A DNA stretch of 26,397 nt from the IMG/VR virus record IMGVR_UViG_3300005529_000088, positions 1 to 26,397 of that record. One strand, given 5' to 3'. Shown in pieces: positions 688-16,929 of the stretch. The position numbers and the translations under genes were made by a program. The number at the start of each line of letters is the position of its first letter. Position 1 is the stretch's first letter. The notes under the pieces were generated by a model. It did not search any database. It was not told the DNA's origin and saw nothing but the letters and a program-made list of their open reading frames with translations. This DNA is from a virus.

Positions 688-690
688 TTA

Positions 691-2280
691 CTACCGCGTG
701 ACCTGCACTGACCAGGTGACGTTCCCGCTCACCGTCCCCGGCGCGTCCAGCTCGCATTTCTCGCCGGCCGCCGACGCATGGCTGCCCGTCGTAGTCGAAT
801 AGCTCGCCGCACACGACGTGCTGACGGTCAGGGTCGCGAGCGTCGTGCCGCCGCATTTCAGCGTATAGGCGTCGCTTTCGCTCGGATTTGTCGAGCAGCT
901 TACGAAGGCATTGGAAGCGTCGAAGGTCGCGGGCCATGTGACCGCGATTGGCACGGGCAGGTGGGACACCTGACTGGCGGAAACAGCGCCGAATGAGAAA
1001 ACAACACCGGTGGTCGTACCGGATAACGCCCCAGTCGGCACGTTCGAGCATGTTGGGACCGCATGACCAGCGGAGATCGCCGTTACCACCTGGTTCGTGC
1101 AAGTACCGCCGGTTACATGGCCACCGCCACCCGGTGCCGAGAGGGACGCAATCTCACCCGGCGGAAACAGATCGAAAGTGTAGGTTCCACCGGTCGCATT
1201 CGTGGACAGGACCGTTCCGATGAGCTGCGTGGTGGTCGGCTGAGACGTTCCGCAATCATGCAGCTCACCCGCAGACGTAGTTGACGCACAAACGAAATCG
1301 CCGGACGTGGTTGCTCCGTCGAAAACCCCCGACGCGAACCCCGTCACTTGTACGGTGGCCGTGCCTGTCGTTCCGCATCCGGTTTTACAGATTCCAAGGA
1401 TACCGCTGGTATCGGCAGTGCTGATGGTTACGGCCTGCCCAGAACCATTGTCCTTGATAAGTTTGCCGGTGGCCGTGCCGGTCACGCCGTCATTCGACCA
1501 TAGCTCGTAAACCGACTTGGATTGCGTGGCGATATTGGCGTTCGAGGCCCCCGTAACATCGCCCGAAAGGGTGACGGTCCCTCCGGTCGATCCGCTAATC
1601 TCCGGCGAAAACAGATCAACGGTGTACGTCCCCTGGCTGATGTTCGTGCTAAGAACTCGGCCGATGACCTGCCCCGACGCGGGATACGTCGCGCCCGCAT
1701 CGTGGCAGGCTCCCGCTGTCGTCGAACTGATCTGTACATAGTCGCCGGCCGTAGTCGCGCCGTCGAAAATGCAGGACGCGGTGCCCCCAAACTGGATCGT
1801 CGCGCTGCCGGTCGTCCCGCCATCCTGCGTCGTTATGCCGACTATCCCGCCCGTGTCAGTCGTAGCCGCTCGCACGGCTTTCGACGGAACGTCTGCCAAC
1901 TTCGTCAGCGTATTGTTGACGGTCCCGACAGAGGAATCGTTTGCGACAATAATCGTGGGCGCGATGAACGAAACCGGCTGCCCATTGAGTTCGTAGCCCT
2001 TGAGCGAATTGATGAATCCGTCGAACGTGCCAGTGTTCGACAATCCAATGTTGATCCAATTGCCGCCAGGAATGGTCAGTTCGTTGCTGATGGTGAGGTT
2101 ATTGAATTGGCAGTTGAGCCCCCACCCGCAGGCATCGCCTTGCGTCGCGCCTTGCCCGAGCTGCTGGAGCAGAAAGCCGTTCGCGTTGGTGTTGGCGGTC
2201 CAAGGCGAGGACTGCGCGAATGCGACTCGCGCCGCAATCAGCAGCGCGAAAATAAACAGCCCGACTCGCCTCAGCGCCAT
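691..2280 (-). CDS. Signal-peptide fibre-like protein with a tandem 110-residue duplication
   Basis: This 529-aa protein begins with basic residues, a hydrophobic core and the cleavage-like RVAFAQSSP at about residues 18-26, a textbook Sec signal peptide. Two homologous segments follow, about residues 119-228 and 268-377. Both contain FDGATT(A/S)GD(Y/F)V, a Cys/His-containing turn (ACHDAG or ELHDCG), then IG(R/T)VLSTN and a GTYT(V/F)DLF strand. The C-terminal third is Ser/Thr-rich with several cysteines and ends in VTWSVQVTR. The low-complexity, beta-rich, Thr/Gly-rich make-up fits a phage fibre or adhesin. The start overlaps the 112-aa gene by 10 bases. The exact function is unknown; it could be exported from the infected cell rather than built into the particle. 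Confidence 0.8.
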   Translation of the reverse strand: MALRRVGLFIFALLIAARVAFAQSSPWTANTNANGFLLQQLGQGATQGDACGWGLNCQFNNLTISNELTIPGGNWINIGLSNTGTFDGFINSLKGYELNGQPVSFIAPTIIVANDSSVGTVNNTLTKLADVPSKAVRAATTDTGGIVGITTQDGGTTGSATIQFGGTASCIFDGATTAGDYVQISSTTAGACHDAGATYPASGQVIGRVLSTNISQGTYTVDLFSPEISGSTGGTVTLSGDVTGASNANIATQSKSVYELWSNDGVTGTATGKLIKDNGSGQAVTISTADTSGILGICKTGCGTTGTATVQVTGFASGVFDGATTSGDFVCASTTSAGELHDCGTSQPTTTQLIGTVLSTNATGGTYTFDLFPPGEIASLSAPGGGGHVTGGTCTNQVVTAISAGHAVPTCSNVPTGALSGTTTGVVFSFGAVSASQVSHLPVPIAVTWPATFDASNAFVSCSTNPSESDAYTLKCGGTTLATLTVSTSCAASYSTTTGSHASAAGEKCELDAPGTVSGNVTWSVQVTR

Positions 2281-2609
2281 ATCACGTCAACGGTGCAGGC
2301 TGTGTTGCCGCTTTCGAGAACGGCGGCCCAGCCGACTCCGAGGCCCGCATCCGCGCCGGACGCCGCGCTGCTCAGCGCATCGTGAAACGGAATCGCACTG
2401 TTTGGCGCCAACTCGTAAGTGTTGGACGGTGCGGCATTCGGGGGCGCGGCGGTGGTGTACGGAAAAATGAGGACCGGAACGGCGCTCGCCACCCGGTTCT
2501 TGATCCATAGCGCCGCAGCAACGAATCCCGGCGCCACGAGTGACACCGGAACCGTCGCCGAGTTCACGCTGACGGTCGCGACATTGACCGTAGGATTGTA
2601 CGTCGCCAT
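2271..2609 (-). CDS. Hypothetical small structural-type protein (112 aa)
   Basis: The 112-aa product begins MATYNPTV and is Ala/Val/Thr/Pro-rich with few charges, typical of small beta-structured phage head or fibre accessory proteins. The ATG lies one base after the TGA of the PGDYG-like gene (TGAGATG), and the 3' end overlaps the next gene by 10 bases, so it is translated as part of the operon. It has no signal peptide, unlike its downstream neighbour. I recognise no family motif. It may be a chaperone or attachment partner of the adjacent fibre-like protein, but that is only positional inference. Confidence 0.7.
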   Translation of the reverse strand: MATYNPTVNVATVSVNSATVPVSLVAPGFVAAALWIKNRVASAVPVLIFPYTTAAPPNAAPSNTYELAPNSAIPFHDALSSAASGADAGLGVGWAAVLESGNTACTVDVIWR

Positions 2610-2610
2610 C

Positions 2611-2874
2611 TCAGTTCAGAACCTCCGCCTTTTTCTTCGGCTTCGGTGCCGGCGGCTCGAACAGCGTCTCGAACACGCCATGCGGCATGACAAGGCGTTC
2701 GCCAGCGACGCTCACGATCCAGTCGCCTTTGACAATCGGCACGTTGCCGCGCGCGGTCGCGCATCGGAAATCCATCGGCCCGAAAGCCCAAGCGCCGTCA
2801 GGGTAAGGCTTCGCCGGGTCGAATTGGACCGCCTCGACGAGCGGAACGCCTGTCTTTGTCTGATAGGTCGCCAT
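2611..2874 (-). CDS. PGDYG-like small phage protein
   Basis: The 87-aa product contains ARGNVPIVKGDWIVSV followed by GERLVMPHGVFETLFEP. This is the pattern of the small phage PGDYG-type domain, in which a GD(W/Y)I(V/I) turn is followed by a GE and then a P-x-x-F-x-x-x-(Y/F) motif. It ends in a Lys/Pro-rich tail (APKPKKKAEV). I chose the ATG at 2874, which forms a TGATG overlap with the upstream gene; a GTG one codon earlier is also open. The biochemical role of the family is not established to my knowledge. It lies between basic mini-proteins and fibre-like genes. Confidence 0.7.
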   Translation of the reverse strand: MATYQTKTGVPLVEAVQFDPAKPYPDGAWAFGPMDFRCATARGNVPIVKGDWIVSVAGERLVMPHGVFETLFEPPAPKPKKKAEVLN

Positions 2875-3107
2875 CACATTCTCCGTCCGCGACCGCGATG
2901 CTTGCGCCGGAGTGCGATCTTCCTCATGTTTTCGGCGAACACCGCCCGCTTGCGCGTCTTCGGATTTCGCGAGTGTTCAGCCTTGCGGATCTTCTTCTCG
3001 GTGAGGTGGCCGCCCATCTGGCGCGTGAATGCGCCAACGGTGCCCTTGCGCTCCATACGCTCGCGCGCTTCCTGGAGAAACTTTCGCGTCCTCTTCTTGC
3101 GTGCCAT
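2874..3107 (-). CDS. Basic 77-aa phage protein with a KGTxGAFT motif
   Basis: The 77-aa product starts MARKKRTRKF and carries 29 Lys/Arg against 6 acidic residues. The centre reads ERKGTVGAFTRQMGG, and the C-terminal half has KTRKRAVFAENMRK. A KGT-GAFT motif followed by an RA-FA-N motif recurs in many small uncharacterised phage proteins, from memory. It ends HRGRGRRM. Start and stop overlap both neighbours (TAATG upstream, TGATG downstream), so translation is coupled. It is the last of four consecutive tiny basic genes. Nucleic-acid binding or DNA condensation is a reasonable inference; nothing in the sequence proves it. Confidence 0.75.
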   Translation of the reverse strand: MARKKRTRKFLQEARERMERKGTVGAFTRQMGGHLTEKKIRKAEHSRNPKTRKRAVFAENMRKIALRRKHRGRGRRM

Positions 3108-3274
3108 TACATTCTCCTTCCCGACTTCGCGCGCTGCTTGTCGCGTTTGCGCTGGATGAACTTGCGCTCGAAACTCGTACGCAATTCGCGCGCGCCGGTC
3201 GTCCGCTTGCCTTCGCCGCCCACTCGCGCCCGCTTGCGCAGAATGAGGTCTTCGGCGCCCGTGTCAAAAGCCAT
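3107..3274 (-). CDS. Basic mini-protein (55 aa)
   Basis: I chose the internal ATG at 3274, which follows a GAGGAGC Shine-Dalgarno sequence about 8 bases upstream, rather than the longer open frame. The product starts MAFDTGAEDLIL and becomes strongly basic (LRKRARVGG, FERKFIQRKRDKQRAK, GRRM), with 18 Lys/Arg and 7 acidic residues. It overlaps the preceding 58-aa gene by 11 bases in another frame and ends in a TAATG junction with the 77-aa gene. Function is unknown. Its mixed acidic start and basic tail differ from the uniformly basic neighbours. Confidence 0.65.
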   Translation of the reverse strand: MAFDTGAEDLILRKRARVGGEGKRTTGARELRTSFERKFIQRKRDKQRAKSGRRM

Positions 3275-3440
3275 AGGTCTTGCTCCTCGTTTTCCGTGAT
3301 GCGCGCAAACGCTTCCCGCGCGAGCGAAGACTGCGAACCTTACCGATATTCGTAAGCTGATCGCGCAACTGTACCGAGCGCCGCGCCTGCCGCCTGCGCA
3401 CGCGATCGAGCGCAACGTCTCGGATCCGCCCGCGTCTCAT
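3264..3440 (-). CDS. Arginine-rich mini-protein (58 aa)
   Basis: This short gene fills what would otherwise be a gap. ATG 3440 overlaps the TGA of the 56-aa gene as ATGA, and its own TGA lies 11 bases inside the next gene. The product has 18 Arg and 4 Lys in 58 residues against only 3 Asp, and includes DRVRRRQARRS and KRLRASRKTRSK. The tight junctions on both sides and the similarity in size and charge to three adjacent genes support it as real. A nucleic-acid-binding, protamine-like role is inferred from composition only. Confidence 0.62.
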   Translation of the reverse strand: MRRGRIRDVALDRVRRRQARRSVQLRDQLTNIGKVRSLRSRGKRLRASRKTRSKTYGF

Positions 3441-3607
3441 TTTCTGCGACTCCCGCGCGAAATGCCGCGTCCTTTGCGTACGCGCCGCCGAATGCTGATT
3501 TGACCGCTGCGCCGTTCGCGACGCAGTTTGCGGCCCTCTTTAGAGTTTGGGCCGAACTTCGCCATCAGAAACCGCCACTGGCGTCCAGTTACATCACTGT
3601 TGGGCAT
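3437..3607 (-). CDS. Arginine-rich mini-protein (56 aa)
   Basis: I chose ATG 3607, which lies just inside the end of the 692-aa gene (14-base overlap). The product reads MPNSDVTGRQWRFLMAKFG, then an almost purely basic tail with RKLRRERR, RRRVRKGRG and RGSRRK. There are 15 Arg and 5 Lys against 3 acidic residues. A second possible start is Met15 (MAKFG). It is the first of four overlapping mini-genes just downstream of the internal virion proteins, which makes a DNA-packing or ejection-related role possible. That role is inference. Confidence 0.65.
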   Translation of the reverse strand: MPNSDVTGRQWRFLMAKFGPNSKEGRKLRRERRSGQISIRRRVRKGRGISRGSRRK

Positions 3608-5672
3608 CGGCTGGCCCTTCCGCTTCGGCGCGCATCGCCGCGTTGAACGCCGCAACCGCGAATCGCGCCGCCGTCTGGGAATCCTTGCTGGCTAACGCCT
3701 TCTCGAATAGCGCCATCGCCGGACGCGAATGCGCGACGATCTGATAGCCCTCGATTCCAAGGAGGCCCGCGCCCGCAATCGTTGCTTCCTGGAAGCCGAA
3801 TGCCTCGCCGCCCGCGATGAGCGCAGCACCCCATCGCAAATAATGCGCAAGCGGCGCGAGCACTGGCGATTCGAGATATTCCCTGACCCTGGCTGCGACT
3901 GCCGCCGCCTCATCGGGATGCGCGAGTAGTTCCTTGTGCTTCGCCAGTACCTCATCGGCGGTGCGCAACCATTGTTTCTTTGCGCCCGCCCCATACAGCT
4001 TGTTGAAGACCTCAGTATCGACGCCGCCGACAGTTTTCTTGAGGGCGCTCAGCCGGTCGGCCATGTTGTTCGCGCCTTCGGTTTCCGCCTTCTGGTAAAG
4101 ACGCGCGGCGAATCCGCGGCGCAGCATTCCGAGCTGGCCGTTGACTTTCATTTGGTCGATGACTTCCGCGACGCGGCCGGTGTCGCCTTTCCCCGCTTTC
4201 AGAATGGCCTCAGCCGCCCCCGGCACCGTAAAAGCCTGACGCACGCCACGGAGAGGAAAGCGCGCAACTTGGCGAGCGTAATAGGTATCCAGCGCACGCC
4301 GCTGCGTTGCCGCCGTAGGCCCGATAACCCTATCAATGTCGTCTTCGGCGGATTTCTGAAGTTCCCCGAGCACCGAAAGCGCGATGCGGTCTTTCTTGGG
4401 ATCCAGATTGCGGGCGAGCTTCCGCATCTGGCTCAGGATGAACTGTTCGCGCCGGACAGTCATCGGCGCGCTCTCGATCTGCTCTTGCAGGTACTTCCGC
4501 ATCGGCTTGCCGACGAGTTTCAGCATCGGTCCACGCGCCGCGAATTTCTGCGCAAGGTCGTTCGCTGTGCGAACATGCGCGTACGGCGCAAGCAGCTTGT
4601 CGTACTCCGTCCCGAGATCGCGAAGTCCCCGCTCCGAAGTCTCCTCGTAAGGTTTCCGCAGCACACTTGCGGGCGCCTGCTCAAGCTGCTTGGCGACCCG
4701 AGGGGAAGTCCCAAAGGTTCCTTCAAGTGCCGCCTCGGCTGTCCGCGCCTCCTCGAGCGCGTCGCGGAAACTTTGACCAGTTGCGCGCATGATTGCGGCA
4801 GCCTTGCGGAATCGCGGAACAAGAGGCAGCAGACCCCCGACCGCAGAACCAACGCCACCTACTGCCGCCTCTTCGCCAACGCTGACAGGCGGCAGTCCGT
4901 AGGCTGCACGGATTTTGTTCTCAGCTTCGGCACCGGCCGCAGAGCCAAGCGCGCCGCCCGTGGTTGCGCCGACGTATTCCGGTACGCCCGTTTCGCCCGC
5001 ACCAGGAATCGCGGCGCCACCTATCGCGCCAAGCGCCTCTCCGCCGAACTGCCCGACCGCAGGCAACCATCCGGCGAGACGCGCGCCCAACGGCTCCGGT
5101 TTTTCGGATGACGTAGGGACCGCCGCCGGTACGGTCGTTTTTGCGATAGGCCCGTGATAGGGAACGAACTTCCCGTCTTTGTCCTTGACGTATCCGACCG
5201 GCTCCGCCGCGTAGGCCGTTCCTTCGCCCATGAGGCCGCTGAGCACTTTCGGGAGCGTCAACACATTTGACGGCTGCGCCGCTTGGCTGACATCGGGCAT
5301 CGCCTGACTGCGTATTAGCGACGGCATGTCGCCGCCGCCCAAAACCTTGTTTGCGTAGGCCTCCGATGCCGCCGGCACGTCGCCCTTCGCAACGTGAGTC
5401 GGGCCCGCATTGTAGGCTTCAAGCGCCAGCCGCGCGTCCCCCTTGAAGCGTTTGAATAGATCGCGAAGATAGGACTTTGCCACGCGCCGATTCGTCGCGG
5501 GGTCTGTCAACTGCTCCGGCATCACGCCGTACTGACGCGCAGTCTGCGGCATGATCTGGAACAGACCAATTTCGCCCTTACGGCCGCGAGCGAACGGATT
5601 GCCTGAGGCGTCCTCAAGCATCCCCATGCGGTTGAGAAGGGTGTCGAGATCGAAATTTGGCATCGCGCCCAT
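3594..5672 (-). CDS. Internal virion protein with N-terminal lytic transglycosylase domain
   Basis: This is a 692-aa protein. Residues about 12-95 form a soluble lytic transglycosylase (SLT) domain. Glu20 in MLEDASGNP is the likely catalytic acid, GEIGLFQIMPQTA spans residues 33-45, and ALEAYNAGP spans 83-91, matching the family's three signatures. A Pro/Gly/Ala-rich linker follows, then helical Ala/Gly-rich stretches (GGALGSAAGAEAE, VGGVGSAVGGLLPLVP), a long charged helical region, and a hydrophobic GAALIAGGEAFGF segment near the end. This layout resembles T7 gp16-type internal core proteins, which cut peptidoglycan and help DNA cross the envelope during ejection. It follows the 386-aa protein with a TGATG overlap; Met4 is an alternative start. 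It is unlikely to be the release endolysin. Confidence 0.82.
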   Translation of the reverse strand: MGAMPNFDLDTLLNRMGMLEDASGNPFARGRKGEIGLFQIMPQTARQYGVMPEQLTDPATNRRVAKSYLRDLFKRFKGDARLALEAYNAGPTHVAKGDVPAASEAYANKVLGGGDMPSLIRSQAMPDVSQAAQPSNVLTLPKVLSGLMGEGTAYAAEPVGYVKDKDGKFVPYHGPIAKTTVPAAVPTSSEKPEPLGARLAGWLPAVGQFGGEALGAIGGAAIPGAGETGVPEYVGATTGGALGSAAGAEAENKIRAAYGLPPVSVGEEAAVGGVGSAVGGLLPLVPRFRKAAAIMRATGQSFRDALEEARTAEAALEGTFGTSPRVAKQLEQAPASVLRKPYEETSERGLRDLGTEYDKLLAPYAHVRTANDLAQKFAARGPMLKLVGKPMRKYLQEQIESAPMTVRREQFILSQMRKLARNLDPKKDRIALSVLGELQKSAEDDIDRVIGPTAATQRRALDTYYARQVARFPLRGVRQAFTVPGAAEAILKAGKGDTGRVAEVIDQMKVNGQLGMLRRGFAARLYQKAETEGANNMADRLSALKKTVGGVDTEVFNKLYGAGAKKQWLRTADEVLAKHKELLAHPDEAAAVAARVREYLESPVLAPLAHYLRWGAALIAGGEAFGFQEATIAGAGLLGIEGYQIVAHSRPAMALFEKALASKDSQTAARFAVAAFNAAMRAEAEGPADAQQ

Positions 5673-6832
5673 CAGGGATTCGGCGCTCCGTAAATGGGCG
5701 TGCCGTCAGGGGTGTAGCCGATGATCGGCGGCTCACTCGACTCACTCAGACGACCGGCCCGCACGAGAGTCGCGCGGTCTTGGCGCATGATCTGCCGTGC
5801 GGTATCGACGGCGCTCTTGAGCGCGGGGAACGTCTGCGCGTTATTGAGCCGACTCACGATCAAGTTTAATTCAGAATTGTTGATGCGACCTGCACGCGCG
5901 AGCTCGCGCACATACGAAATGATGCCCGCTTTAGCGTGCTCGTATCCCGCATATCTGGGATCGACTTTCGCAAGGATGTACCGTTTCGCCGGATTGATCG
6001 CGATGTCGCGCGCGGTCTCCCCGATTCCGGTCGGCACTTTCTTGGGGAGGACCATTCCGCCTGCTTGAAGTAGCGTGTCGAGGTTCTTTTCGGCTGCAAT
6101 CGAACTTGCGAACTGGTCGGCGTCCTTGTCCGTAAGAAGAATCCCGCCGCGCCTTGCTGCCTCGCCTACAGTCATCCTTGGATCGGGCCACGGCTTGCCG
6201 CCCGGCGTCAGCATCGTTCGCCCCGTCAACGCGCCGATGGGCGTATTCTCGAACTTCTGCGCGGGTGCCTGCTCGGCAAGCTTCTGTTTCAGCGCAGCGG
6301 CCTGCGCCATTTTGTAGTTGAACCAATCAAGCGCAGTCGCGTTAGGATAAGCTTTCTTGAACGCATCGAACTCCTGCTGTTCGACGCTCTGCTTGTTGGC
6401 CTGCTCCGGGAGTGCCGTCCCTTTAGGAAAGGCCTTAAATACGGTTTGGTCGCCAGTCGTTTCCAACTGACCAGGGACGCCGTTCTGCATGAAAACTTCA
6501 CCATGCGTCAGTAGCTTCGGAAGCGCCGTCTTCTGCGCCCGTTTCCGCAGGACCGCCTCGTCGAGCTTCGGCTGAATCGCCAGAAACTCGTCGCTCGAAT
6601 ACCCCAGCATCCGGTTCACGTCGTCCGGCGTCAGGACGCCCTCATTGACGTATCCCTGAAGAATCCGTGGACGGTTCGCCTGCTCGAACTTTTCGCGCGC
6701 GCCCTTGTCGATGAAGCCCGCACCGGCGCTCGCAAGGCGCCCCAGCGGCGAGCGTCCGCCGAAAAGCGATCCGACGAGCCCGAGGATGTCCGCGCTGGTC
6801 GGCTCCTGAAACTGCGTGCTGTCGTCAGCCAT
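5672..6832 (-). CDS. Candidate internal virion/ejection protein (386 aa)
   Basis: The 386-aa product is largely helical by composition. It has a Gly-rich N-terminal segment (LGLVGSLFGG), a repeated Ala/Lys/Gln-rich middle (NYKMAQAAALKQKLAEQ), and a C-terminal region with two charged helices (IISYVRELARAGRINN, KSAVDTARQIMRQD). It sits between two small Ala/Gly-rich proteins and the SLT-bearing 692-aa protein, the position of ejection proteins in P22-like and T7-like phages. There are no catalytic motifs. It overlaps the upstream gene by 8 bases and the downstream gene as TGATG. The assignment is by context, not by sequence signature. Confidence 0.6.
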   Translation of the reverse strand: MADDSTQFQEPTSADILGLVGSLFGGRSPLGRLASAGAGFIDKGAREKFEQANRPRILQGYVNEGVLTPDDVNRMLGYSSDEFLAIQPKLDEAVLRKRAQKTALPKLLTHGEVFMQNGVPGQLETTGDQTVFKAFPKGTALPEQANKQSVEQQEFDAFKKAYPNATALDWFNYKMAQAAALKQKLAEQAPAQKFENTPIGALTGRTMLTPGGKPWPDPRMTVGEAARRGGILLTDKDADQFASSIAAEKNLDTLLQAGGMVLPKKVPTGIGETARDIAINPAKRYILAKVDPRYAGYEHAKAGIISYVRELARAGRINNSELNLIVSRLNNAQTFPALKSAVDTARQIMRQDRATLVRAGRLSESSEPPIIGYTPDGTPIYGAPNP

Positions 6833-7229
6833 TTCGCAGCCCTATCGGCGGAACGCCCATCGGCACGCCAGTAAGTCCTCGCTGATACGAGGACTGAATG
6901 ATCGATTGGAGATTCGGCATTACGCCGGTCGGCGCGGTCGGCGCGGATTCTCCACTGCCGCCATGCCCGGCGAGTTGCTGAAGCAGTTGCGGCAGAAACG
7001 AACTGGGGCCGCCCCCGCCAGCCGCCGTTTCGCCGATCTGCGACGCAAGTGTATTCACGTCGCCCGGCGCGAGTGTCGCAAGGCTGTCGGCGCCCGTTTG
7101 CGCGAAGTCGCCAAGCGTCATCCCGGCCAGCGCGGGATTTGCTGCGCCCGCTGCCGCGCCAGCCGCGTCGGCCGCGCCGGCGGTCGCGCCGGTCCCCAAC
7201 GATGCGAAAAGAGATGCTAGAAAGCTCAT
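6825..7229 (-). CDS. Small Ala/Gly-rich candidate ejection protein (134 aa)
   Basis: The 134-aa product opens MSFLASLFASLG and continues through an Ala/Gly run (GAADAAGAAAGAANPA), suggesting a hydrophobic, membrane-active or helix-packing N-terminus. The C-terminal half is Pro/Gly-rich with NLQSIIQSSYQRGLTG. Such low-complexity proteins are often found among the genes for internal virion proteins. It begins at the stop of the 236-aa gene and overlaps the 386-aa gene by 8 bases. A specific role cannot be assigned. Confidence 0.55.
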   Translation of the reverse strand: MSFLASLFASLGTGATAGAADAAGAAAGAANPALAGMTLGDFAQTGADSLATLAPGDVNTLASQIGETAAGGGGPSSFLPQLLQQLAGHGGSGESAPTAPTGVMPNLQSIIQSSYQRGLTGVPMGVPPIGLRNG

Positions 7230-7939
7230 TAGAACAACGAGAATCCCGTCTGCGACGAACTGCCGCTGCTATTCTGGCCGATGAGCGCCGGTAGCCATGA
7301 CGCCACCATGTTCTCCTCGCCCAGCCCTGCCATGAGCTGCCCAAGCCGCTGGTTGTACCGCGAGCTCAAGATGGCTTGCGCTTCCTGCTGCGGGATTCCA
7401 GCGGCCTGGAGCGCGTTTGCGAGGTTCGTGATGCCTTGGTTGAACTGCTGGCTGCCGACGCCGAAAAGCCCCTGGGCTCCTGTTTCTTGCGCTTGGATTC
7501 CCTGTTCGGCCAGCCGCAGCGCCATCTGCTCGCCAGCCATAGCCAGATTCTCGCCAAGCGCGCCGGAGTTCCCCAGCCCCGCCAGCGCCATCTGAGACTC
7601 GACGGTTGGCGCGGTGATGTCCTGAAAGATTTTTTCGCCATAGGGCACCGTGTAATTCGCGCCGGATGCGAGCTGCCCGTAGGCATTCGCGGCCGACTGC
7701 TCCGACGGATTCAGCGCAAATGGATTCTCGCCCAACCCGACGTACTGGTTGATGAGCGCCAACTGGTCGGGCGTCAACGGCGCAATCTTCTGGCGCGGGT
7801 AATCCTGAATGAACTGCCCCGGACTCGGCAGGCCATAAAGCGAGGCGAACTGGTTGCTCGCCATGCTCAACAGTCCTTCAAGGCCCGGTGGGACCGAGGG
7901 GCTGGTCGAACTCGAACTCGAACCGCCGCCGAAGCTCAT
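7229..7939 (-). CDS. Candidate ejection/internal virion protein (236 aa)
   Basis: I chose ATG 7939 rather than the longer open frame. It has an AAGGAG Shine-Dalgarno sequence about 9 bases upstream and starts MSFGGGSSSSS just after the previous stop. The product has a Ser/Gly head, a Pro-rich region with LTPDQLALINQYVGLG, and then a long Gln/Ala/Gly helical region with GLGNSGALGENLAMAG and NLANALQAAGIPQQEAQ. This Ala/Gln-rich helical pattern with an NSGA element is seen in podoviral injection-type proteins that I remember, but I cannot name a family with certainty. It belongs to the block leading to the SLT protein. Confidence 0.6.
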   Translation of the reverse strand: MSFGGGSSSSSTSPSVPPGLEGLLSMASNQFASLYGLPSPGQFIQDYPRQKIAPLTPDQLALINQYVGLGENPFALNPSEQSAANAYGQLASGANYTVPYGEKIFQDITAPTVESQMALAGLGNSGALGENLAMAGEQMALRLAEQGIQAQETGAQGLFGVGSQQFNQGITNLANALQAAGIPQQEAQAILSSRYNQRLGQLMAGLGEENMVASWLPALIGQNSSGSSSQTGFSLF

Positions 7940-7940
7940 T

Positions 7941-8510
7941 TCAGTTTCTCCTTGCCGCCAGCAGCGACGGCACGACAATTCGCCGGTCGGACGGCGCGGC
8001 CAGCTTCCCGGCCGAAGGCTGCTCGACCTCGAAATGCATCAAATGAAGCGCCTTTGGCTGCGTGAAGCCGAGCGGAGCCAAGTAGCGTGCCCACACTTCG
8101 GGGTCCGCCGGACCGACAAATTCCATGCTGCTGAGCGGCGCGACTGCCGGAATATAAGGCACGCGCCCACGGAGAGCGTTGATTTCGTCGATCCACGCGC
8201 GGAGCTCGCCAGCCCACGCGTGCCGGTCCTCGCCGACCAGTCCCTGCGCCTGAAACGCGAAAATCGTTATCGTGCCCAGTTGATACGAAAGCCACGAGCA
8301 AACGTGCGCCCGCACCGCGCCGTCGCCATCACCGAATAGCCAATAGCCGCTCGCGACCGGCGTCATTGCAAAGCGCTGGCGAAGTTCCGTCGCAAGAAGC
8401 GCTGGCTGATGCGGGACGCCGACCTCCTTCGCGTACTCAAGCACGCGCTTCTCAAAGGCCGGATATAGCCCCCAGCTTTCCAAGATGTCTCCGCGAATTC
8501 GCGTTATCAT
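7941..8510 (-). CDS. Possible GNAT-like phage protein (189 aa)
   Basis: I chose ATG 8510, which overlaps the upstream TGA as ATGA. The product has a beta-rich middle (GYWLFGDGDGAVRAHVC, GTITIFAFQAQG), a helix with paired hydrophobics, and an ending in PEVWARYLAPLGF followed by a beta strand (ALHLMHFEV). A late R-x-L-x-x-x-GF element followed by a strand is typical of GNAT-fold proteins. However, the acetyl-CoA loop (R/Q-x-x-G-x-G/A) is not evident, so any acetyltransferase activity is doubtful. Podoviruses often carry inactive-looking GNAT-fold genes near tail genes. It could equally be an unrelated tail accessory protein. Confidence 0.45.
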   Translation of the reverse strand: MITRIRGDILESWGLYPAFEKRVLEYAKEVGVPHQPALLATELRQRFAMTPVASGYWLFGDGDGAVRAHVCSWLSYQLGTITIFAFQAQGLVGEDRHAWAGELRAWIDEINALRGRVPYIPAVAPLSSMEFVGPADPEVWARYLAPLGFTQPKALHLMHFEVEQPSAGKLAAPSDRRIVVPSLLAARRN

Positions 8511-8869
8511 CGGATCGCCACCCAATCGACGCTGAGATTGCCTGCTGGCGGACTGCTCAGCGTGGCCGAAAACCCAGTGGTATTTTTCGCTACCGAAGAA
8601 AAAGTCCCCATCGGCGCTAGGATAAGTGCGTAAGTGTTGTCCGGCATCGGCGCCGTAAACGTCGCGCTCTCCGTGGCGGTGTTGGCGGGGTACGTCAACG
8701 TTCCGTACTGAACCTGGGAGATCCCGAGCGTCACGAATCGCGCCATCATCGCGCCCCAGTTGTTTTGGAGCACGAACCTGACCTGCTGAACGGCCTCGTA
8801 GGCGGCTTGGTCTTGCGGACGCGGCGGCGCCGGCAGCGGGAGCCCCAATGGCGCTTGAACGCCCATCAT
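8507..8869 (-). CDS. H-lectin-like tail protein (120 aa)
   Basis: After a Pro-rich N-terminus and a short helix (YEAVQQVRFVLQNNW), residues about 55-120 form a beta-rich domain. Its ESATFTAPMPDNTYALILAP, NTTGFSATLSSPP and final VDWVAIR match the strand pattern and the DW-(V/I)-A-I ending of H-type lectin modules at phage fibre tips. These domains bind carbohydrate or form trimeric jelly-rolls. The start overlaps the stop of the hub gene; a second Met follows immediately. The position next to the hub suggests an attachment role. Confidence 0.6.
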   Translation of the reverse strand: MMGVQAPLGLPLPAPPRPQDQAAYEAVQQVRFVLQNNWGAMMARFVTLGISQVQYGTLTYPANTATESATFTAPMPDNTYALILAPMGTFSSVAKNTTGFSATLSSPPAGNLSVDWVAIR

Positions 8870-10416
8870 TCGACCCCTTCGCCCGTCAGGTTATAGACGC
8901 CCTTGTTCACGACGTTGACCTGGACGTAAGCCCCAATAAACGCAAGGCTCCCCGGCGACGTGCCGCTGAGCGCAACTTGAATCCAGTTGTAGAAAGTCGA
9001 GCCAGGGGCGTCCACGCCGGGCGCGGAAATTACTTGAAAATCGCTTTCTTTGTAGGACATCAGGTAGGCCGGACTGAGGTCTTCGATGTTCCCGATGGGC
9101 GTTCGCAGACCGTACACGCGAAACGTAAGGATGTCCTTCGCGCTCGACGGCTCTACGAAGGCCTCGACGGCTTGAATCTGCATCTTTTCAAGCGATGCGG
9201 TGCTCCGAGGCCCCCAGACTGCTGTAAATGGAATCTGCGCGCCGTTGTCTCCGGTGTCAGTGTCGTACTCGTAAAACTTGCCCACGCCATCGCCGACGAA
9301 TGCGGTTGGCCGATAGGTCGAAGTCGCCCCACCGAACGGTCCGCTAAAGCCGCAAGTGAATGCTTGCTGGTATTTCGCCGGCGGCTCCCAGCGATTGAAA
9401 TCAAGCGAATAATAGACCGCCTGATCGGGGTCGCTGCCGGTCGTCGGGAAATGGAATCGAGCGTGACGGCCGGACGGGGAATAGAACGCAAAGGACCGCC
9501 CGATGTTCGCAAAGTTGATGTTGTCGAGAACGTACGACTGGATCGGAATGCCGAAGTTCTGCGGGGCGAGCCCATTGAATGTCCAGATGCGGCCGTCATT
9601 ACCGAGGAAGTAGTGCGTACCTTCGATTGCGACGATGGCGGCGGTGCTGGCCGGCCCGACGACACCCTCGCCCAACGCAAACTCTTGAAACGCGAAGGCG
9701 TTGGCGTCGTCGCCGACCTGGGCGTTCATCTGCCACAGATTCTGCTCCATGTAGATGTACGCGCTCAGGTTGCCGAGACGGGCCGCCGCCGCGATTCCGC
9801 TGCCAGGGTCAACGAGATCCGCGACTGCCTGCACCGGAAAACTTGTCGGGTTATTGAACGCCGACCAGCGCACGCGATTGGGATAGAACACGCCGCTCTC
9901 GGTCGTGCCGACGACCACAAGCCGGTTGGCGAGCACGAAAATGTCAATCGCGTTCTCGAAGGGCAATCCTCCGACCTGAGTGATGCTCGCGCTTCCCGGC
10001 GTCCATGAAATCAGGCCGTTTTGGCCGTCCACCGCATAGAGCGTATCGGTGCCATTGACAAAAATGACCGCGAACTCCGTGAAGTGGTCGGCCGACCCGC
10101 TGAGATTGCCGGATAGCTCCGTAATCGTGCCGGTCGCGCCGCCGCTATAGCTCCACCAACGATTCAGTCCCGCCACGACCGTCCGCACCGCGCCATTCAC
10201 GCCAACCCAGCTAATCCCGCCTGTGAACCGTTGTCCGGCCTTGCTGTCCGCAAGCAACGAGTAGCCCGAGCGCACGCGAAGCATGTCGGTCTGGTCGCAG
10301 AAGACGTTGTACGACCCCGCCGCCAGCATTGCGGGGCTGAGCTTGTGGGCTGGCAGGTCGAAACGAGTGCCCTCGACCGGCGACACGATCTCGACGGTTT
10401 TGGTCCCGCGCGGCAC
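8866..10416 (-). CDS. Tail hub/stabilisation protein (P22 gp10-like)
   Basis: This 516-aa protein starts with GTG 10416, in a TAGTG overlap and preceded by GGAGAGG. The sequence is a run of beta-blade-like segments: SGYSLLADSK, DTLYAVDGQNGLISW, FVLANRLVVVGTTESG, RVRWSAFNNPTSFPV, GTHYFLGNDGRIWTFNG. The V-R-W-S-x-x-N-(N/D)-P motif after a tyrosine-rich strand is characteristic of the P22 gp10 family, which has a beta-propeller fold and seals the portal/adaptor channel and holds DNA in the head. It sits between small tail genes and the H-lectin-like protein, as expected. I am fairly confident it is a podoviral hub or nozzle, less so about exact orthology. Confidence 0.68.
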   Translation of the reverse strand: MPRGTKTVEIVSPVEGTRFDLPAHKLSPAMLAAGSYNVFCDQTDMLRVRSGYSLLADSKAGQRFTGGISWVGVNGAVRTVVAGLNRWWSYSGGATGTITELSGNLSGSADHFTEFAVIFVNGTDTLYAVDGQNGLISWTPGSASITQVGGLPFENAIDIFVLANRLVVVGTTESGVFYPNRVRWSAFNNPTSFPVQAVADLVDPGSGIAAAARLGNLSAYIYMEQNLWQMNAQVGDDANAFAFQEFALGEGVVGPASTAAIVAIEGTHYFLGNDGRIWTFNGLAPQNFGIPIQSYVLDNINFANIGRSFAFYSPSGRHARFHFPTTGSDPDQAVYYSLDFNRWEPPAKYQQAFTCGFSGPFGGATSTYRPTAFVGDGVGKFYEYDTDTGDNGAQIPFTAVWGPRSTASLEKMQIQAVEAFVEPSSAKDILTFRVYGLRTPIGNIEDLSPAYLMSYKESDFQVISAPGVDAPGSTFYNWIQVALSGTSPGSLAFIGAYVQVNVVNKGVYNLTGEGVE

Positions 10417-10784
10417 TACTCAGCCTCTCCGGCGCCGTATAGGATTCGCTGGAGCGCCTGAAGCCACTTCGGCGTCTGGTCCTCAGTGATCTTCAATGAC
10501 TGATTGACGCCAAGCTTCCGCAATGGGTCCAGCGTCTTCGTCAATGTCCCGTTATCCACAAGGTACTGACCATATCGGTTGTTCGCGAGCGGAGAACCGA
10601 TCAACCGCAGGAGCGCCATCTGCGCAGCAACTCGCGCGGCTGTCGCCGGACCGAACACTACACCGGTCGCCAATCCCGTGACTGGATCGATGGTCGGTGC
10701 CTGCAACGCTTCCTCGTCGGCAGTCGGAATCCCCGGCGTTCCGGCCATCTTTTGAAGGTGTTCCATGATGTCCGCCAGCGGCAT
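10416..10784 (-). CDS. Hypothetical tail-region protein (122 aa)
   Basis: I chose ATG 10784, in a TGATG overlap with the 378-aa gene; a GTG one codon upstream is also open. The product is helical and mildly acidic at the N-terminus (MPLADIMEHLQKMAG). It has an Ala-rich helix (GPATAARVAAQMALLRLIG) and a Lys/Arg-containing C-terminus ending QALQRILYGAGEAE. No motif is recognised. Its location between a beta-rich surface protein and the hub suggests a tail accessory or assembly factor, which is contextual inference only. Confidence 0.6.
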   Translation of the reverse strand: MPLADIMEHLQKMAGTPGIPTADEEALQAPTIDPVTGLATGVVFGPATAARVAAQMALLRLIGSPLANNRYGQYLVDNGTLTKTLDPLRKLGVNQSLKITEDQTPKWLQALQRILYGAGEAE

Positions 10785-11920
10785 CACTGACCCCCTTGCG
10801 GCTGCGCTTCGAGGTACATCTGGCTCGAAAACTCAACCGCGCCGTTCGTACGCGTAAGCTGAAGTTGCAGGTAGTAGCGTCCTGTGTACGGAAACCAGCC
10901 GCTGCCGCTCGTGCAGTAGGCGTAATAGCCGTCGGGCGCGAACGTCAGGTCTTGGCTTTGGGTCGTGCCGTCCGGCCGCGTCAGCAGTAGCTTGATCTGG
11001 CTGTAGAGTGCGGTTGAAAAGAGCGACCGCGGTCCCGCCTTGTGCGCCGGCCAGACTCGAAGCAGATAGCCGACGCTATTCGCGATGACTCGCGGCTCCT
11101 GCGAATACACATAGCCATATTCGGCGGGGTTCAGATCGAGCGAGGTGTAAAGGTCGATAGTCTGATTGGGGATGTAACCGTTGTCCAGCCACAACGAAAG
11201 CGCGTGCGTGACGAGAGGCGTCTGAATGGTCGTGCCAGTCCAATCCGCGCCGGTTTGCAGCCCCGATGACACCACCGATATGTCGGCGAGCGCAATCGCG
11301 ATTCCGCTGCCGTTGGTCGTCTGGAGCCGCGAAGTGTAGCCAGTTGGCACCGTCAGGCTCGCCCAGCCGGGCGTCGCTAGTACTGCCAGCTCGAAATCCG
11401 CCACGTTCGCAAAGAGGTCGGGCACGACCGCCGATGACACGGGATTGAACGGGCCTGCCGTCTCGGTTTGCTGCGACGCGCTGAACGACAGCGTTAGCGG
11501 CGGCAGATTCAGCAGCGAATGATTCCGGATGGCAACCGCCTGGCTGACATTCTCGTAAGCTGCGGTCAGCGCAACGCCCGCAATTGACCCCGGCGCGGCG
11601 CCGATGACGGCCGTTGGCGCGCTCAGCACCGGAAAGACGTAAGGCGGGTCGTCCGCCGGCGTCACGAAATGCGTAAACACCGCATACGAGATGCTGATCG
11701 GTGCGGGATTCTGTGCGCCCGCCAGTGTGGAATCGACCGTCGAGAAGGCATCAACCTGATTCCAGCCGGGCGACGACCAGATGCCGCCCGCGCTCGGTGC
11801 CGCGAACACCGCAATGAGAAAGTCGCCAACCTGCACGCCGGCGGGCTGGTCGATCTTCCAGAAATTTTGCGCCGTGTTAAAATCCGCCTCGACGGCGCTG
11901 CGGAACGCGATAGTCGCCAT
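10784..11920 (-). CDS. Beta-rich phage surface/tail protein (378 aa)
   Basis: The N-terminal domain (MATIAFRSAVEADF, then PAGVQVGDFLIAVFAAPS) has the strand and PxG-x-x-x-GD-x-(L/I)(L/I)A signature of a beta-sandwich module common in phage tail and fibre proteins. Further strands and an aromatic-rich middle follow (LWLDNGYIPNQTIDLY). The C-terminal domain (SQIKLLLTRPDGTTQSQ, GRYYLQLQLTRTNGAVEF) resembles a BppU-like or baseplate-fibre beta domain. There is no signal peptide, unlike the related partial protein at the left edge. It begins at the TGATG junction with the 306-aa gene. A receptor-binding or decoration role is inferred. Confidence 0.55.
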   Translation of the reverse strand: MATIAFRSAVEADFNTAQNFWKIDQPAGVQVGDFLIAVFAAPSAGGIWSSPGWNQVDAFSTVDSTLAGAQNPAPISISYAVFTHFVTPADDPPYVFPVLSAPTAVIGAAPGSIAGVALTAAYENVSQAVAIRNHSLLNLPPLTLSFSASQQTETAGPFNPVSSAVVPDLFANVADFELAVLATPGWASLTVPTGYTSRLQTTNGSGIAIALADISVVSSGLQTGADWTGTTIQTPLVTHALSLWLDNGYIPNQTIDLYTSLDLNPAEYGYVYSQEPRVIANSVGYLLRVWPAHKAGPRSLFSTALYSQIKLLLTRPDGTTQSQDLTFAPDGYYAYCTSGSGWFPYTGRYYLQLQLTRTNGAVEFSSQMYLEAQPQGGQ

Positions 11921-12840
11921 CAGAGAATCCGCGCGCCCGGCGGCCCTTCAAAGTCGATCTGTTGGATGATTTCGTAGCCGGGACGATAGTTCTGTCCCTG
12001 CTTTTGGCCCTGCCGTTCGATGTCGTCGTTGATCGCGCGCTGCCGCTCCTCCTGGTAACGCTTGTCGGCGGCCTGCGCGGCGTTCATCCAATTGGCGCTC
12101 CCCTGCGAAGCGTACAGCGCCAGATAGCACAAGCTGAGCGCCTTGTTTTCGAGGACACTGACGGGAATCTGCGGCCAATCGTTATCGGCGACGAGCGGCT
12201 TGAACCGCTCGCGATACTCGATCACGAAGGACTGCACGCCGCCGGGGCGCAACCAGAGCTCCAGCCTGACGTTGCCTTGGTTGTCATATCCGGCGATGGC
12301 CCATGCGACCGAAGGCGTTGATGTGCCAGCGAGCCGCGCGGGATCTAGTAGGTGCAGCATGAAGCGCGACACCGGCAGCACTGGCAGGATTTGCCGAACT
12401 AGGTAAACCTGCGCGCCGCCCGGAACGGAATAAAACTGCGGACGCAGATCGAAATTGACGTTGCTTTGCGACACGTCGCCCCACGGCTCGCTAAGCTCAA
12501 GCTCGGTCGGCGACACGAAACGCTCGACGTTGAGCGGCATATACTGCGAGCCCAGCATGACAACCCAGTTCTCAGGCGGGCAGTAGTCCGGCAGGCTGTC
12601 GGGCATCGGAAAATTCGTCTCGTAGCCAACGACGGTCTTCGAGCCGTTCGTCAGGCTGACGACGCCATTGACGTTATCGGGAATGCCCCAGATGACGCCG
12701 GTCTTGAACAGGGCCGACCACTGCCACGACTCGATTTCTTCCTCGAGCGCCTGGTTGACGAGCGTGCCGATGTCCGCGTCCGCAAGCTGCCCCATCGTGA
12801 GGACTTTGAGGCGATTTCGGACTTGCTTAAAGGTCGGCAT
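11920..12840 (-). CDS. Candidate head-tail adaptor protein (306 aa)
   Basis: The N-terminus is helical (MPTFKQVRNRLKVL, TLVNQALEEEIESWQWS). A beta region opens with GVVSLTNGSKTVVGYETNFP, an element often seen in podoviral proteins between the capsid and tail hub. The end is a Gln/Arg-rich helix (ADKRYQEERQRAINDD). A long N-terminal helix, a W-rich turn and a SLTNGS-type strand fit an adaptor (P22 gp4-like or its functional equivalent) that forms a ring under the portal. It has a GGGAG Shine-Dalgarno sequence 6 bases before ATG 12840. It might instead be a tail-tube-like ring protein. Confidence 0.5.
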   Translation of the reverse strand: MPTFKQVRNRLKVLTMGQLADADIGTLVNQALEEEIESWQWSALFKTGVIWGIPDNVNGVVSLTNGSKTVVGYETNFPMPDSLPDYCPPENWVVMLGSQYMPLNVERFVSPTELELSEPWGDVSQSNVNFDLRPQFYSVPGGAQVYLVRQILPVLPVSRFMLHLLDPARLAGTSTPSVAWAIAGYDNQGNVRLELWLRPGGVQSFVIEYRERFKPLVADNDWPQIPVSVLENKALSLCYLALYASQGSANWMNAAQAADKRYQEERQRAINDDIERQGQKQGQNYRPGYEIIQQIDFEGPPGARIL

Positions 12841-12849
12841 TGTTCTCCC

Positions 12850-13347
12850 CTAGAACGGCACGCAAGTCGTGATTTCCGCGGGCGCTTGAGCCCCCACGCC
12901 GGGGTCGTACGCGCGAACCTGATTGCAAACCAGCCGAGAGACTGGCGACCCGAAGCACACGTGAAACTCGCGATGCGAAGACGGCGCGGCGGGCGCGAAG
13001 GAGCAATCGCGTCCGTCTGACATATCGCACGTTGCGCGAGAAACGCTTTCGTACTGAAGAGTCAGATAGTATTCGTCGGCCGCCCCCGCCGGCGTGAGAT
13101 AGCCCGCACCGCGGCCTTGCACAAAGGTATTGCCACGCTGCCCGAGAATTTGGCCGTCGTAGGTGGCGTCGAACGTCAGCGTGAGGTCGTCGTTAACGAC
13201 CAGACGCTCGACCTTGGAATGCTGCCCGATATACGGTGCTTCGGGGTACGAACGCTGTCCCCAGACTTGGCAAACAAGCCGAGTTGCCGCCGCAGCCGTC
13301 GGAGCGAGCCCGAGGACGAACGATAGGGCTAGCGCGACACGCCTCAT
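12850..13347 (-). CDS. Small secreted six-cysteine protein
   Basis: I chose ATG 13347 (TGATG with the fibre gene stop) over the longer open frame, because the product then begins with a clear signal peptide: MRRVALALSFVLGLAPTAA, with cleavage near residue 20-21. The mature part is about 145 residues with six cysteines (26, 107, 115, 131, 141, 162), an even number that suits three disulfides formed outside the cytoplasm. It contains strands such as LVVNDDLTLTFDATYDG and ends TTCVPF. No enzyme motif is visible. It is likely a periplasmic or secreted factor made with the fibre. Superinfection exclusion, envelope modification and fibre binding are all possible. Confidence 0.72.
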   Translation of the reverse strand: MRRVALALSFVLGLAPTAAAATRLVCQVWGQRSYPEAPYIGQHSKVERLVVNDDLTLTFDATYDGQILGQRGNTFVQGRGAGYLTPAGAADEYYLTLQYESVSRATCDMSDGRDCSFAPAAPSSHREFHVCFGSPVSRLVCNQVRAYDPGVGAQAPAEITTCVPF

Positions 13348-15287
13348 CACGACGCCCCGTTCGGCACTCGGTAGCCCTGCACCTGCAGGTACAGCGCCTG
13401 CCCGGTCGTATTTGTCGTTCCTAAGTCCCACTTGTAGTACGGACCGCCGGAAATGTACGGCAGTTCGATCCACCCCGAAGTTCCGCCCGCATTCGCGTTC
13501 GAGATCGCGGCAACGCGAATGTTGAAGAATGCCGTCGAGGCGTTCAGCGTGCCGCTTACCAAGGCGATATAGACGCCCATGTCGCCGCCGGTCGTCCCCG
13601 GCGTCCAGAGCGTTGCGTAGAACAGTTCGTATTGCGTGGCCGTCGAGGGCACGAAGGATGCAATCGGGATGTTCGTCGAAGTCGTCGCGGAGCCGGCGTT
13701 CAGTAGCGTCTGGTTCTGCTGGTAGTACACCGTGTTGCCGCGAACGTACATTGACAGGAGATTGCCGGAGCCGTCCGTCAAAAACGTGCCGAGGTAGGCC
13801 CAAGCGGTGTAGTTCGTCGGCAGCGTCGGCCCGGTCGGCGGCGCCGCCAGGGACGCCAGCAGCGCGGCTGGCTGTCCGCTGCCCGTAATCGCGTACAGGT
13901 GAAAAAAGACGTTGTTCCCGAACGCCGCCGCCTGGTCGCGCCCATTCGCTTGCGAACCGGTTTGCGCGCCCACGACGAGGTCGTTTGCGCTGAACGAAGT
14001 AGTCAGCGTCGCGACCTTAGTGGTGGGATTGATCGTGATGACCCGGTCCGCCGTCACGTCAAATGTGGTCGTCGGATTCGTGCCATCGTTCGCGCCTTGC
14101 AGATTTACCGATCCGTAACTCAACGGCGGCGCGGCCCAAGACGTTACCCCCGAGCCATCAGTTTGAAGCATTTGGCCGGTGCTGCCGTTCGTCGTCGGAA
14201 ATTCAAACGTGGGAGTCCCCGCCGCAGCGGGCACCGTCAAGGTCGCCTGCCCCGAGCTCGACCCGGGGAGCACGATCTTCGGCGTGTTCACTTGCGCTGA
14301 GGCCGTAATCGTCGTACCGGATATGCGTCCGGCGCTTATCTGTCCGGTCGTATTGATGGTCGGCGGCGCGGCCCCTGGCGCCACGGACCCGGTATCCTTG
14401 TAGGTCGCGGTCCCGACGGTCGCGAGCAACCCAAGCGACCCCGCAACCCGCCCGTACACGTTGTATCCGCCGTGGCACGCGGAACTCCCCGTCCACGTCA
14501 ACGTGTTAAAGTTACTCGCCGAAAGGCTGGCCGCATTCGTGACCGTCTGGCTCGCTGACGGTACGGACTCCCCCTCGTCCCCGACGCAAGTGATCTCGTA
14601 GGTGTAGGTCGTGGTGCAGGTGCCCGTACACGTTCCGCCCGCCGAAAGCGCCGGCGCGGTCAACACGCTCAAATCGAGCTGGTTGATGTTGATTCCGCTC
14701 CAATTGTTGAAATTGAGCGTGTTCGTGATGGCGAGATTGCCGGGCGGCCCCGAGCTCACCAACCAATCGCCTAGCGTCGCGTCAACCAGCGTCGCTGCTG
14801 CGTTCTGGATATTCAGCGCGAAGCTTGAGCCGCCGTTAATCTTGTCCGAGCCCGCCGGCGTGATCGTGCAGGCGTTCGACGTGCTGTCGGTCTTAAAAAC
14901 GTAAATAGTAACGCCCAGTCCGCCGGACGCCGGCAAATCGACCGCGATCGGTCCGGTGGCCGCGTTGCAATCGACGATGGCCGACGTGACCGCACAGGGC
15001 GAGGTCGTACAGGTCTGCGCCGTCAGATGCGTGCCGATGATGTGGAAAATCCCCGGCGACACCAAGCTTACGTCGCCGGTCGGTACCAACAGCGAATAGC
15101 TGAACTGAGTGTTGCCGAAAGGTATCGTCTCGTACGGCGGATTCGCCAGAGACGTAAGCGAGTTGAGAAGCTGATTGTTGGCTTGGTAGGTCGAAGTGCC
15201 GGTGGACGGTGGCGACTGCGCGCGCACGCCCCACGCCAGCAAGGCGAGCGCCAGAACCGTCGTCGCAATCAGGATGAGTTTTTTCAT
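13347..15287 (-). CDS. Large fibre-like protein with signal peptide (646 aa)
   Basis: I chose ATG 15287, which yields MKKLILIATTVLALALLAW, a classical signal peptide with a VRA|QS cleavage site after residue 23. The mature protein is Thr/Ser/Gly-rich and fibre-like. It has a fibronectin-like domain (TTYTYEITCVGDEGESV through GGYNVYGRVAGS), a TGQMLQTDGSGVTSW element typical of phage fibre shafts, and a C-terminal beta domain (DLVVGAQTGSQANGRDQAA onward) ending in YLQVQGYRVPNG. It is the first gene of the tail half, starting six bases after a rho-independent terminator. There is no clear Shine-Dalgarno sequence, so expression may be held low. Confidence 0.78.
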   Translation of the reverse strand: MKKLILIATTVLALALLAWGVRAQSPPSTGTSTYQANNQLLNSLTSLANPPYETIPFGNTQFSYSLLVPTGDVSLVSPGIFHIIGTHLTAQTCTTSPCAVTSAIVDCNAATGPIAVDLPASGGLGVTIYVFKTDSTSNACTITPAGSDKINGGSSFALNIQNAAATLVDATLGDWLVSSGPPGNLAITNTLNFNNWSGININQLDLSVLTAPALSAGGTCTGTCTTTYTYEITCVGDEGESVPSASQTVTNAASLSASNFNTLTWTGSSACHGGYNVYGRVAGSLGLLATVGTATYKDTGSVAPGAAPPTINTTGQISAGRISGTTITASAQVNTPKIVLPGSSSGQATLTVPAAAGTPTFEFPTTNGSTGQMLQTDGSGVTSWAAPPLSYGSVNLQGANDGTNPTTTFDVTADRVITINPTTKVATLTTSFSANDLVVGAQTGSQANGRDQAAAFGNNVFFHLYAITGSGQPAALLASLAAPPTGPTLPTNYTAWAYLGTFLTDGSGNLLSMYVRGNTVYYQQNQTLLNAGSATTSTNIPIASFVPSTATQYELFYATLWTPGTTGGDMGVYIALVSGTLNASTAFFNIRVAAISNANAGGTSGWIELPYISGGPYYKWDLGTTNTTGQALYLQVQGYRVPNGAS

Positions 15288-15293: not shown

Positions 15294-15335
15294 AAAAAAA
15301 TGCCCCCAGGCCGGGAGGAACGTCAGCCTGGGGGC
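15294..15335 (-). terminator. Rho-independent terminator upstream of the fibre gene
   Basis: Read on the minus strand, a perfect 10-bp GC stem (GCCCCCAGGC, 14-base loop, GCCTGGGGGC) is followed by one A and seven T's. It ends six bases before the fibre start codon. Orientation and T-run fit leftward transcription from the capsid cluster. The plus strand has no T-run, so it is one-directional. Confidence 0.85.
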
Positions 15336-15395
15336 CGGTCGCGCCTGCCCCGTAAACACGACGCAAGGCGTTAGTGACCTGTAGCCGCAGCGCGA

Positions 15396-16625: not shown

Positions 16626-16635
16626 AACGACCCCC

Positions 16636-16914: not shown

Positions 16915-16929
16915 TGCGGATGCCTCGCG

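Follow-up and report, generated by a model that had tools for sequence, protein, structure and literature searches.

The window analysed here, i.e., the whole 26,397-base stretch of the IMG/VR virus record IMGVR_UViG_3300005529_000088, encodes four proteins that begin with predicted Sec signal peptides (SPs) and whose genes lie among those for the phage particle. All long genes of the window are on the minus strand, in the order terminase (phrog_2), portal (phrog_156), major capsid protein (phrog_9953, the type of Myxococcus phages Mx8 and Mx9) and then tail and internal virion genes, among them one whose 692-aa product has a transglycosylase/endolysin domain. The four genes in question share their strand with the terminase, portal, major capsid protein and internal virion genes and are thereby placed inside the head-tail cluster. 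In the only longer close relative that we found, G001 (57,658 bases), eight compared proteins are 97-100% identical to those of the window, and so for these eight it provides little independent evidence; the protein at the edge of the window behaves differently, as described below.

The first of the four is a fibre-like protein of 646 aa (13347..15287, minus), comprising an SP, modules with eight cysteines (residues 93-271) and a cysteine-free C-terminal tip. The longest version of its frame opens with GTG at 15359, but the SP is read from the ATG at 15287 (residues 1-23, MKKLILIATTVLALALLAWGVRA, followed by QS; 15219..15287, minus); the scorer used by us placed the cut at 25, and the AxA-like site was assigned at 23 by eye. 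The start of the next gene overlaps the stop of this one by one base and opens a frame for a 165-aa protein (12850..13347, minus) with an SP (residues 1-20, MRRVALALSFVLGLAPTAAA, followed by AT; 13288..13347, minus) and six cysteines in the mature chain. The third protein, of 529 aa (691..2280, minus; its start overlaps a 112-aa gene by 10 bases), has an SP (residues 1-22, MALRRVGLFIFALLIAARVAFA, followed by QS; 2215..2280, minus), 14 mature cysteines and two repeat domains, the first with the cysteine pair C170/C192 (1585..1947, minus) and the second with the pairs C298/C302 and C331/C343 (1147..1512, minus). The fourth, referred to here as the edge protein, is truncated at the window end (1..687, minus); its SP (residues 1-19, MKRLFTLIAFLLWASLAHA, followed by AG; 631..687, minus) is identical in 16 of 19 residues to that of its counterpart in G001.

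A sequence-only reading of this DNA had described these four proteins as starting with typical Sec SPs with AxA-like cleavage sites; their coordinates were verified, and our scoring agrees with that description. The scorer, which is home-made and not SignalP, combines a von Heijne-type matrix with Kyte-Doolittle hydrophobicity and was used in a relaxed and a strict version. In one region of the E. coli K-12 genome the relaxed version called 8 of the 13 proteins which we take to be exported, and 0 of 29 others; roughly two of every five genuine SPs thus escape it. All four window SPs combine an n-region charge of +2, a hydrophobicity of at least 2.5 and a cleavage site, i.e., the n, h and c regions are present. 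No other ORF (open reading frame) among the 30 scored in the window shows this combination, the 115-aa ORF at 24851-24504 having a hydrophobic N-terminus without the charge. When the N-termini were shuffled (500 times each), equal scores were reached by none of the shuffled versions in the case of the edge and 529-aa proteins, by two in the case of the 165-aa protein and by one in the case of the 646-aa protein.

The same reading had proposed a survey of SPs in related phages, and there they turned out to be nearly absent. In 80 capsid-related loci (the best 80 of at least 519 relatives, 4-21 kb long, so that fibre genes can lie beyond their ends) the relaxed scorer called 12 of 1218 ORFs, and 4 of the 694 of at least 200 aa; the strict one called 2 of 1218, and 0 of the 796 of at least 150 aa. 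In ten other phage loci, nine of them capsid-related and one related by the fibre tip, the strict scorer called 3 of 376 ORFs, a count in which the 165-aa gene was dropped by the non-overlap filter (it was scored directly among the window ORFs). Several large proteins with SP are therefore unusual for this phage group, as far as can be judged from partial loci and a scorer of the above sensitivity.

Independent support for export comes from the cysteines. Exported proteins with disulfide bonds tend toward even cysteine counts, and the mature chains conform to this, with 14 cysteines in the 529-aa, 8 in the 646-aa and 6 in the 165-aa protein, and 14 in the G001 counterpart of the edge protein. 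Cysteines account for 2.02% of residues in the window proteins with SP (30/1485, the truncated edge protein included) vs. 0.50% in the others (34/6798). Across the phage loci studied, their density is only modestly higher in proteins with SP (1.85% vs. 1.08%). Counts are even in 31 of 34 proteins with SP vs. 62 of 122 cysteine-bearing ORFs without it (Fisher p about 8e-6, an optimistic value, as proteins sharing domains are not independent and relatedness inflates it). This comparison covers mature chains of at least 140 aa from genes complete within their locus and on its main strand; loci L166 and L183, which are chromosomal, were left out, the edge protein is represented by its G001 counterpart, and the set without SP includes shadow frames as well as a carrier of the repeat domain with 19 cysteines, whose SP the scorer misses (L141). 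A smaller earlier count from fewer loci gave 24 of 26 vs. 39 of 82. Among proteins that carry the tip of the 646-aa protein without having received an SP call, parity is not biased: of 27 distinct proteins, 10 have even and 15 odd counts, and 2 have no cysteines (these were hand-picked from 34 by removing seven repeats and translated from the earliest start of their frames, that of L110 being open at its 5' end).

In the repeat domain of the 529-aa protein cysteines occur solely in pairs, in all 13 aligned copies. At alignment columns 43 and 52 both are present in five copies and neither in eight, and at columns 68 and 91 both are present in 11 and neither in two; other pairs are found at columns 82/94 in the second window repeat and at 94/99 in L167. 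Disulfides that are gained and lost as units would be expected to leave such pairwise presence and absence. Given the SPs together with even, co-varying cysteines, the predicted departure of these proteins from the cytoplasm by the Sec pathway is well supported.

The repeat domain models as a phage cement, head-fibre or appendage fold. Its AlphaFold model, built from an 11-sequence alignment, has a pLDDT (predicted local distance difference test) of 88.6, and structural comparison by VIA-align gave matches with Z of about 9-12, including a Haloferax virus protein (Z 11.9), several cement proteins, the phi29 head fibre gp8.5 at its base (Z 10.7, root-mean-square deviation 2.5 over 103 residues) and phi29 gp12 (Z 10.3). 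The top match in BFVD bears the name preneck appendage protein (E 2.4e-5). Searches of PDB sequences with profiles of the repeat and of the tip resulted in weak matches only, as did a search with the 646-aa protein (an entry 'Major cement' at E 0.12), and there was no match for the 165-aa protein or the G001 counterpart of the edge protein.

A search with the repeat-domain profile added eight further virus records, and when viral sequences were scanned again with a broader alignment, only the same nine records came up. Matches also occur in bacterial genomes. The search with the 646-aa tip had led to a contractile-tail prophage (L133/L168, with baseplate wedge phrog_6) in a deltaproteobacterial metagenome-assembled genome; here, the tip lies on a fibre without SP (43% identity over 286 residues), and the gene that follows encodes a 1730-aa protein with SP and 34 mature cysteines, one domain of which is 53% identical to the window repeat over 111 residues. 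In the bacterial family of this host, five of 41 genomes have repeat-domain matches, counting the genome itself and one weak match (G410, L182), while two phylum-wide draws yielded 2/297 and 1/395. By their look, the carrier loci include podoviruses (G302, G303 and G306), a siphovirus (L158, with tail protein phrog_1101), the above contractile-tail prophage and others.

Twelve of the 14 carrier genes examined score as having an SP; the other two (L141 and L166) are SP-like by eye only, and in L144, L145 and L146 the SP begins at an internal start, 20-58 codons into the longest frame. These cases, as well as the reliance on a home-made matrix, favour the view that such N-termini merely mimic SPs and are hydrophobic docking peptides of ordinary cytoplasmic fibres. 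We consider this very improbable, since neither the cysteine parity nor the co-variation follows from N-terminal criteria, and the parity bias is absent from proteins that have the same tip and no SP call.

The tip itself (13350..14186, minus) links the 646-aa protein to tail fibres. It occurs on proteins without SP call in 34 other loci (35 in all), on fibre-like proteins of other phages, and one additional phage record with the tip bears the annotation 'tail fiber protein'. Proteins with SP from two of the podovirus-like loci show similar links. The 273-aa protein of G302 matches a tail-fibre PHROG at residues 31-119, just past the SP, and the 565-aa protein of G303 matches one near its C-terminus (471-551). 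In the 464-aa repeat-domain carrier of G302, assigned by PHROGs to a family of unknown function, the stretch following the SP resembles by eye the N-terminus of the fibres without SP from L103 and L107. No tail-fibre family was matched by the eight G303 proteins without SP that were scanned. A 350-aa entry in the scans is a fragment of the 930-aa G303 protein with SP.

The positions of the genes are also consistent with virion fibres. In G302, G303 and G306, as in the window, the genes for proteins with SP are on the strand of the morphogenesis genes. G303 has six of them, encoding proteins of up to 1672 aa; five follow the genes for internal virion proteins (phrog_6651 and phrog_418; tail proteins phrog_394 and phrog_376), and the large internal virion proteins encoded next to them contain no cysteine. 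Phage T7 keeps its fibre gene after its internal virion protein genes. The sixth G303 gene (50447-53239, minus) lies far from the others and encodes the 930-aa protein, with 14 mature cysteines.

The edge protein diverges between the window and G001. Its identity to the G001 counterpart (929 aa; window 1-687 compared with G001 27380-28057) is 51% (119/233 aligned positions), compared to 97-100% in the eight other proteins compared, although the SP is kept in 16 of 19 residues. The cysteines C90 and C118 are kept, and C42 and C127 of the G001 protein are both absent from the window copy. The G001 protein is accordingly treated here as a diverged counterpart of the edge protein and not as its completion. 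Divergence behind a kept SP is as expected of an exported adhesin or host-range determinant, and the edge protein is thus predicted to be a hypervariable exported protein.

Our preferred interpretation, put forward tentatively, is that these proteins are adhesive fibres of virion type that are exported by Sec, folded and oxidised in the periplasm and joined to the particles at lysis. The fibres would be made together with the particle, which implies late expression, and sent through Sec; in the periplasm the SP would be cleaved and the cysteines would pair into disulfides, presumably by DsbA-type oxidation. They would stay there during head and tail assembly in the cytoplasm, and once holin and endolysin open the cell, fibres would meet particles and attach, which would complete the host-recognition apparatus. 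The SPs, the even and co-varying cysteines, the virion-type folds and the place among morphogenesis genes can be read from the sequences and models directly, whereas late expression, export itself, cleavage and oxidation are inferred. Of these steps, Sec export and disulfide pairing have the best support, in proteins whose genes accompany those of the virion; attachment at lysis is favoured because in fold, tip, gene place and divergence these proteins match virion fibres.

Several observations weigh against this interpretation. No large protein with SP was called in the 80 capsid-related loci, so the particle type does not need the trait. PHROG and Pfam scans of the four window proteins gave nothing useful and no tail-fibre match, and in a Foldseek search of the PDB gp8.5 came first with a best E of 0.0025, i.e., without passing 0.001. 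Cysteine counts are odd in three proteins with SP, namely those of G306 (148-3288, 13 cysteines), L159 (2817-4775, 5) and L184 (10719-11825, 5). The L168 prophage retains a fibre without SP beside its protein with SP, and the window likewise retains a 378-aa protein without SP and with one cysteine (10784..11920, minus), which is fibre-like by eye only and may be an ordinary appendage. Finally, two of the 14 carriers (L166 and L183) lie in bacterial chromosomes with no evident phage genes beside them. The chromosomal copies and the retained fibres without SP speak, at least partly, for a role at the surface or in solution.

Both chromosomal loci (L183 6496-10627 and L166 8717-12236) are three-gene clusters of fibre- or tailspike-like proteins with SP or SP-like N-termini, and the adjoining genes are glycosyltransferase-like by eye. 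Possibly, these are domesticated or secreted fibres, and such carriers leave room for a non-virion role. One such role would be at the host cell, where the exported fibres could coat the surface or occupy receptors in superinfection exclusion or adhesion, like secreted phage-derived adhesins. The SPs and paired cysteines suit an existence outside the cytoplasm, the clusters show the domain in a cellular setting, and Bdellovibrio MAT fibres (PMC10769870) are a cellular precedent. However, neither lipobox, anchor nor outer-membrane exporter was seen by eye in the four window proteins; three of their genes overlap or nearly touch the preceding gene within the morphogenesis string (overlaps of 1 and 10 bases and a 3-base gap); and six proteins of up to 1672 aa, as in G303, are many and large for a blocker. 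On balance, we regard a role at the host surface as unlikely, while granting it more weight than the other alternatives.

A separately expressed cassette, which would fit such a role, could be marked by an intrinsic terminator before the 646-aa gene (15302..15335, minus). This hairpin of 12 pairs followed by A and seven T (-27.4 kcal/mol, z -3.3), also present in G001, separates the head genes from the fibre and tail genes and ends 14 nt before the 646-aa start. Since this gap is too short to hold a promoter, the idea of a separate cassette for the 646-aa and 165-aa genes was rejected, and the element is more likely a possible attenuator. Between the capsid genes and the 646-aa gene, the window also encodes a 271-aa protein (15454-16269, minus) that is glycosyltransferase-like by eye and has no Pfam or PHROG match.

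The exported proteins might instead be soluble helpers freed at lysis. As depolymerases they would strip surface glycans, as decoys they would saturate them, and in either case progeny could get away from the debris. A 736-aa protein with SP from L183 looks like a beta-helix tailspike (tail-spike PHROG matches from residue 32, the best match being a family of unknown function), a GH108-type lysin gene lies about 900 bases after the gene for the 929-aa protein in G001, and the tailspike-fold protein WceF of Pantoea, exported by Tat, is a precedent (PMC7949094). This alternative is nevertheless improbable, as no catalytic family was found in the window proteins. Moreover, cement and head-fibre domains are not known to act as enzymes.

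The sequence-only reading had offered decoys, surface modifiers, superinfection blockers or an unusual maturation of the virion. Export is well supported by the SPs and the even, co-varying cysteines, and gene position, folds, tip and edge divergence point to adhesive fibres whose maturation would take place outside the cytoplasm. Taken together, fibre-like proteins with SP and paired cysteines are encoded by this virus as well as by several very dissimilar ones, and they would be disulfide-locked outside the cell interior. A wider possibility, to which we give slightly less weight than to the proposal for the window itself, is that several tailed-phage lineages split virion assembly across the inner membrane, with Sec-exported, disulfide-locked receptor-binding fibres mounted only at lysis.

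Relatives of the window proteins are few. In the case of the 165-aa protein, G001 was the only one found, with none in genome contigs (searched with patterns that catch close relatives only) or in the phage collection, and its single-sequence model was unusable (pLDDT 37). The 529-aa protein, the G001 929-aa protein and two relatives with SP had no match in the phage collection. Other features of these genomes include a 60-aa ORF of the window that runs opposite to the long genes (19450-19632, plus) and is by eye excisionase-like, with a helix-turn-helix. In G001, an integrase-like ORF (16044-17318, minus; by eye) adjoins a tRNA-antisense-like ORF, so that G001 may be temperate; ARAGORN found no tRNA. 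A 209-aa ORF of L009 (64-694, minus, corresponding to G001 20065-20694) has a lipobox-like start, LTLAAC (by eye), and belongs to no PHROG or Pfam family.

If true, the recurrence of exported, disulfide-paired fibres would imply either that virions are assembled in two compartments or that phages code for a class of extracellular adhesins. Either outcome bears on host range and fibre annotation, and cysteine parity and co-variation make the claim testable in metagenomes. Ordinary phage tail fibres are usually taken to fold, and to be assembled, in the reducing cytoplasm. The window proteins have the repeat fold, the tip domain and the place among morphogenesis genes in common with phage tail fibres, tailspikes and head fibres, such as phi29 gp8.5 and gp12, but differ from ordinary virion fibres, which lack SPs, in their predicted Sec SPs and paired cysteines.

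The titles and abstract openings listed in searches of open-access papers included no description of phage-fibre SPs as a class. Among phage proteins, gp40 of Xanthomonas phage PBR31 has an SP and is similar to tail-associated hydrolases; it differs in being a single esterase, named with the lysis genes and proposed to aid lysis (PMC10975493). The nearest published analogues found are cellular. WceF of Pantoea stewartii (PMC7949094) combines a tailspike-like fold with an export signal, which is Tat instead of Sec, and is the product of a cellular biofilm gene. In the MAT fibres of Bdellovibrio (PMC10769870), an SP precedes a conserved, beta-rich domain of about 130 aa and adhesive modules resembling phage tail fibres, with a C-terminal S74 domain in one subgroup only; Pfam scans of the window proteins and of the 929-aa protein of G001 did not reveal an S74 domain. 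MAT fibres thus resemble the window proteins in carrying phage-tail-fibre-like adhesive modules behind an SP and differ from them in being encoded by the cell and not by a phage.

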